A stretch of 64,000 nt of DNA from an uncultured Dehalococcoidia bacterium (GTDB lineage: Bacteria > Chloroflexota > Dehalococcoidia > Lucifugimonadales > G958296245): positions 2,484,197 through 2,548,196 of the forward strand of contig OY282458.1 of the NCBI GenBank assembly GCA_958296245.1. Reading direction: 5' to 3'. The notes under the pieces are model-generated. The model was not told the DNA's origin. It made no database searches and was given only the letters and a program-made list of their open reading frames with translations. The position numbers and the translations under genes were made by a program. Below, piece after piece: positions 4,252 through 15,738 of this stretch (position 1 is the stretch's first letter; every line of letters starts with the position of its first letter).

Positions 4252-4605
4252 CTATCCCAGACCAAGGGCGCGCGACAGCCTATCCCTGTCCCTGCCCTGC
4301 ACCAAGCGGCCATCTACCAGCAACAGCGGCCGTCGGATCAGCCTGGGTTCTTTCAGCATCATGGTGATGAGCTGATCGTCGCTGAGGGCATCCCTATCGA
4401 CCCCCAGCTTCTTGAAGGATGGGCTGTTCCATGAGAAGACGTCTGGGGCTGGGGTCCCACGGAGCATGCCGCGCAACTCCTCCTCAGAGAGACGCTCCTT
4501 GAAGAAGTCCCTCTCCTCCAGTTCGATACCTTCCCGTAAGAGCCACGCTCTCACCTGGCGGCAGGTACTTCAGCGGCTCCACGTATAGAAGACTGCCCGG
4601 GGCAT
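4252..4605 (-). CDS. ArsC/Spx-family thioredoxin-fold protein, candidate selenoprotein (UGA at 4570-4572)
   Basis: Read from ATG at 4605, with GAGGT five bases upstream, the product is 117 residues once UGA codon 12 is decoded. The N-terminus then reads VFYTWSR-U-STCRQVRAWL. ArsC/Spx-like glutaredoxin-fold proteins have a Cys-x-x-Cys here, so UGA sits exactly at the first redox cysteine and Cys15 is the second. The rest (DFFKERLSEEEL, then KEPRLIRRPLLLVDGR near the C-terminus) is a normal family body with the conserved Arg-Arg-Pro loop. Immediately downstream the mRNA can fold an 8-bp stem with a GUG loop beginning 24 bases after the UGA, matching bacterial SECIS rules. It follows rpsR. An ordinary TGC-to-TGA error is the alternative. 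Arsenate reduction is only one of several possible redox roles. Confidence 0.78.
4536..4554 (-). promoter_or_regulatory. Candidate bacterial SECIS element
   Basis: On the minus-strand mRNA, GUGAGAGC (4554-4547) pairs with GCUCUUAC (4543-4536) in eight consecutive pairs, one of them G-U, closing a GUG loop (4546-4544). The loop begins with G and lies 24 bases after the UGA. Known bacterial SECIS elements have a G in the first two loop positions and a UGA-to-loop distance of about 16-37 bases. No folding energy was computed. Confidence 0.65.
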
Positions 4606-4699
4606 ATTGGACCTCGACTAGAGAAGTATCCCTCGGCGTGTCGGCGGCTGCTCCCGAAGGCGTTGCAGGCGCGGGGAGGTGTGAGTAAGCGGGATGACT

Positions 4700-15588: not shown

Positions 15589-15738
15589 AGATGCGGCGGA
15601 GATTGGCGGCAGCTTCACCCATCGGCGCACTTGACAGGAAGGGGCCGATAGGGTCAGAATATGGTCAGTCGGGAGGGTTGCTAGCTTAACCCGTCAGGTG
15701 CTTGCCTGCCCGACTGCTCTTCTTCCTGAGTGGTGCGG

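Follow-up and report, generated by a model that had tools for sequence, protein, structure and literature searches.

A predicted U-x-x-C selenoprotein with an Spx/ArsC-like fold in SAR202-like Chloroflexota

ArsC-like selenoproteins were described in deltaproteobacteria in 2006 (PMC1794560). For the ocean metagenomes of the Global Ocean Sampling (GOS), the 2008 report lists a group named 'Arsenate reductase 2', with 42 sequences, the domain cd03032, and a UxxC motif (PMC2398784). The preliminary description of this locus had mentioned a prediction of ArsC-like selenoproteins in marine metagenomes, and the 2008 report bears this out. The protein encoded in the 64,000-nucleotide stretch of DNA analyzed here (the window) and the GOS group, as presented there, have in common the Spx-side domain (cd03032, ArsC_Spx), the UxxC motif, and an origin in marine bacteria. 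Judged by motif and Spx-side affinity, the window lineage is likely identical to 'Arsenate reductase 2'. Another UxxC ArsC-like selenoprotein is represented by the curated NCBI model NF041106, ArsC_rel_Se_1 (PMC13188914), but the window protein scores only 21.9 bits with this model, versus a cut-off of 85, and falls into a different subfamily. The best E-values for this model among the relatives were 2.2e-10 and 8.1e-15, from which we infer that no relative reaches the cut-off. In the literature on SAR202 or Chloroflexota together with selenoproteins, nothing was found on a UxxC Spx/ArsC family. The UxxC protein is probably an unnamed subfamily of the already known ArsC-like selenoproteins.

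The fold is also found in proteins of the Spx/MgsR family (TIGR01617; structures 1z3e, 3gfk, and 7f75), which share with the window protein about 33% identity at 2 Å, the position of the CxxC motif, and an invariant Arg92. The window protein differs from them by Sec in place of Cys10, by a shorter loop without Gly52, and by an Arg60 position that is not conserved. Glutaredoxin-dependent ArsC (TIGR00014, 1i9d) and the UxxS group 'Arsenate reductase 1' likewise share the fold and the position of the catalytic residue. The window protein, in contrast, carries a UxxC motif where these have a single Cys or UxxS, and it is far below the TIGR00014 cut-off.

The gene is located on the minus strand of the window. 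Its frame runs from the ATG at 4605 to the TAG at 4254-4252 and contains one in-frame TGA, at codon 12 (4572-4570). The following features were assigned to it:

4252..4605, minus strand: gene for the predicted U-x-x-C Spx/ArsC-like selenoprotein, 117 residues, with Sec as residue 12 and Cys as residue 15
4570..4572, minus strand: in-frame TGA, predicted Sec at residue 12, where the CxxC motif begins; among the 32 genomes of the order that carry the gene, 29 have TGA at this codon and 3 have Cys
4561..4563, minus strand: TGC encoding Cys15, the resolving residue of UxxC, unchanged in 34 of 34 homologues
4611..4615, minus strand: putative Shine-Dalgarno sequence GAGGT, 5 nt 5' of the ATG, assigned from sequence only

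The translation of this frame is MPRAVFYTWSRUSTCRQVRAWLLREGIELEERDFFKERLSEEELRGMLRGTPAPDVFSWNSPSFKKLGVDRDALSDDQLITMMLKEPRLIRRPLLLVDGRLVQGRDRDRLSRALGLG. The preliminary description had opened the frame at the ATG at 4605 and matched the TGA of codon 12 to the leading Cys of CxxC; re-translation agrees, and with U read as C the protein matches the Pfam ArsC family (PF03960; 61.4 bits, E 1e-16, gathering cut-off 24). A start at the GTG at 4554 loses both active-site residues, as had been claimed. Genome-wide reassignment of TGA was ruled out, since 18 of the 39 frames in the window that stay open over 330 codons or more terminate at TGA.

A hairpin is located immediately downstream of the TGA:

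4536..4554, minus strand: bSECIS hairpin with an 8-bp stem GUGAGAGC/GCUCUUAC and the loop GUG (4546-4544); position conserved, with compensatory changes, in 31 homologues

Published rules for bSECIS elements include an apical loop of 3-9 nt, a stem of 4-16 bp, a G within the first two positions of the loop, and a distance of 16-37 nt from the UGA (PMC13188914). An 8-bp stem with a GUG loop inside such limits had been proposed beforehand, and this was borne out: the loop begins 23 nt past the UGA. In the window sequence alone, 8 of 8 pairs are formed, which is mildly unusual by synonymous-codon randomisation (p = 0.024). The fold energy of a 48-nt segment gives z = -2.2, and longer window segments are not significant (z = -0.30 and -0.99). 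As the p value for the window is only 0.024, the claim of a hairpin rests on a comparative test with 31 distinct TGA homologues from order-level and named genomes, in which the randomisation leaves each protein unchanged. In these homologues the stem starts 15 nt after the UGA, 93.5% of cells are paired, and the mean is 7.48 of 8 pairs, versus a null mean of 4.62 and a null maximum of 5.35 in 2000 synonymous randomisations. Changes on both sides were found in 6 of the 8 stem pairs. Covariation was 0.464 versus 0.268 in shuffled data (0 of 500 reach the observed value), and at most 0.180 with the partner slid. The hairpin is absent from the three order-level Cys homologues, which form 2-3 of 8 pairs. 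In L029, also a TGA homologue, the stem at the fixed position is broken, with 4 of 8 pairs formed, although a bulged version can be drawn. A Rfam scan of the window detected no SECIS family at the gathering score, as expected because these hairpins are short and gene-specific.

The gene was found in 32 of 59 genomes of the same order; the 29 with TGA include the window's own genome. A homologue search had been suggested in the preliminary description, and both UGA and Cys forms of codon 12 were found: the order-level Cys forms are G040/L030, G031/L034, and G041/L046, and those at the phylum level are L067, L082, and L090. In the alignment, Sec/Cys12 and Cys15 are invariant, and the sequence is conserved on both sides of the TGA. 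The named relatives are Chloroflexi/SAR202/Dehalococcoidia genomes. At the phylum level, 48 of 400 genomes match, most with one TGA, and a SECIS-like hairpin accompanies nearly all the fetched TGA genes, L088 being without one by a simple rule. The UGA form is widespread across the phylum. A tree of 62 proteins, built on few columns and with many forks unresolved, requires 5 changes between Sec and Cys. One relative, G007, has two TGA-containing gene copies (C9:3660 and C14:12482).

The host genome is a single closed contig of 2.69 Mb. As the preliminary description had recommended, it was searched for sel genes, and all four were found: selA (525.6 bits), selD (373 bits), selB (343 bits, along with its neighbours in the frame), and the tRNA-Sec gene selC (65.9 bits, anticodon UCA). 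The selD gene (L001, C1:4795-5715, minus strand) contains a single in-frame TGA, located at the classical site (SCAGUASKF). By its sequence, SelD of the host is itself a selenoprotein, so that Sec would be needed to make Sec. Among the genomes compared, selA was above the cut-off in 26 of 28 with TGA and in none of the three with Cys (Fisher p = 0.002, a count that ignores relatedness). The two TGA genomes without a full selA are G024 (81% complete) and G055 (88% complete, with a selA fragment). In the Cys-form genome G040, the first 55 positions of selA were matched, by search only, in a 145-aa frame (C169:3716-3871), possibly a relic of recently lost Sec use or an assembly fragment.

A mechanical ORF caller yields a 100-aa frame at this locus, as would be the case if the TGA truly ended translation, or were a sequencing error, and a truncated protein of 100 residues started from the GTG at 4554. 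This has a negligible probability, given the dozens of genomes with TGA at the same codon and coding sequence conserved on both flanks, the covariation of the SECIS, the presence of selA tracking the UGA form, and the loss of the active site from such a protein. A read error in particular is excluded in practice, because TGA occupies the same codon in the 29 genomes of the order. The reading of UGA as Sec made in the preliminary description, with a U-x-x-C redox protein as the product, is supported by the relatives, the hairpin, and the sel genes. From this genomic evidence, Sec recoding appears strongly supported; the UGA at 4572-4570 is almost certainly decoded as Sec, and the product is predicted to be a U-x-x-C redox protein of the Spx/ArsC fold.

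No gene neighbour is conserved throughout the loci of the relatives. Genes rpsF-ssb-rpsR and/or coaD were found near the gene in several relatives and an SDR gene in others. In one branch (L041, L047, L048, and L058-L061), the gene follows mutS in the same orientation and mutL lies farther along; most of these loci also have a HAD-like gene in between. Elsewhere in the window, at 15666-15716 on the plus strand, the Rfam motif DUF3800-VI RNA was detected with a score of 35.8 (gathering score 35).

The UxxC protein is the sole member of PF03960 found in its own genome. The Spx/ArsC fold is a confident prediction of AlphaFold2 (AF2; pLDDT 91.6), with Spx, YffB, and ArsC as the closest solved folds (1.9-2.5 Å). 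For the role, a thiol-disulfide (seleno)reductase is our preferred reading, held with moderate confidence. The protein would act in the cytosol as an Spx/ArsC-family oxidoreductase with a thioredoxin fold and the active site U12-x-x-C15. SelB with Sec-tRNA(UCA) would bind the hairpin at 4554-4536, just downstream, allowing the ribosome to read the UGA as Sec. The selenolate would attack an oxidised substrate, Cys15 would resolve the intermediate to give a selenenylsulfide, and the latter would be re-reduced by thioredoxin or another thiol system. The reductase is favoured because the protein is below the Spx/MgsR and ArsC cut-offs, has no conserved Gly52, and belongs to a family variable at the Arg60 position; UxxC and Arg92 are invariant.

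The main rival to the reductase is a transcription regulator of the Spx/MgsR type, in which the Sec-Cys pair would form an oxidation-sensing switch acting via the RNA polymerase alpha subunit. This is unlikely, even though Spx proteins are the nearest solved sequences (88 bits, where YffB reaches 57 and E. coli ArsC 44), Arg92 is invariant, and the C10xxC13 motif serves Spx as its redox switch (PMC2801614). Gly52 of Spx is required for the contact with alpha-CTD (PMC2801614), but the UxxC protein has no conserved Gly at this place; its loop is two residues shorter, with an ambiguous placement of the gap. Moreover, the position of Spx Arg60 is occupied by Asn in the window protein and is variable in the family. 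TIGR01617 (Spx/MgsR) is the top NCBIfam model for the window protein, yet its score of 71.4 bits is below the cut-off of 75.05. A more specific form of the regulator, a Chloroflexota-wide Spx selenoprotein branch with a selenenylsulfide in place of the disulfide switch and oxidants sensed through selenium, seems less likely still.

That the protein is a genuine ArsC-type arsenate reductase in which Sec acts as the nucleophile is improbable. Such a role would be consistent with the match to the Pfam ArsC family (61 bits), with the resemblance of the fold to that of E. coli ArsC (2.2 Å over 114 residues), and with Arg92, which lies at the position of ArsC Arg94. On the other hand, the TIGR00014 score of 44.5 bits is far under the cut-off of 106.05, and no conserved Arg is present around the region of ArsC Arg107. 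Classical ArsC has one catalytic Cys, unlike the UxxC motif with its invariant resolving Cys. No ars gene was seen among the recurrent neighbours.

These results place a selenoprotein class formerly restricted to metagenomes in a named lineage, the SAR202-like Chloroflexota and the wider phylum. Such genes are truncated or missed by ordinary annotation, and the hairpin is directly testable. The repeated switching between Sec and Cys follows the loss of selA, and it provides natural pairs in which to ask what selenium adds to this fold.
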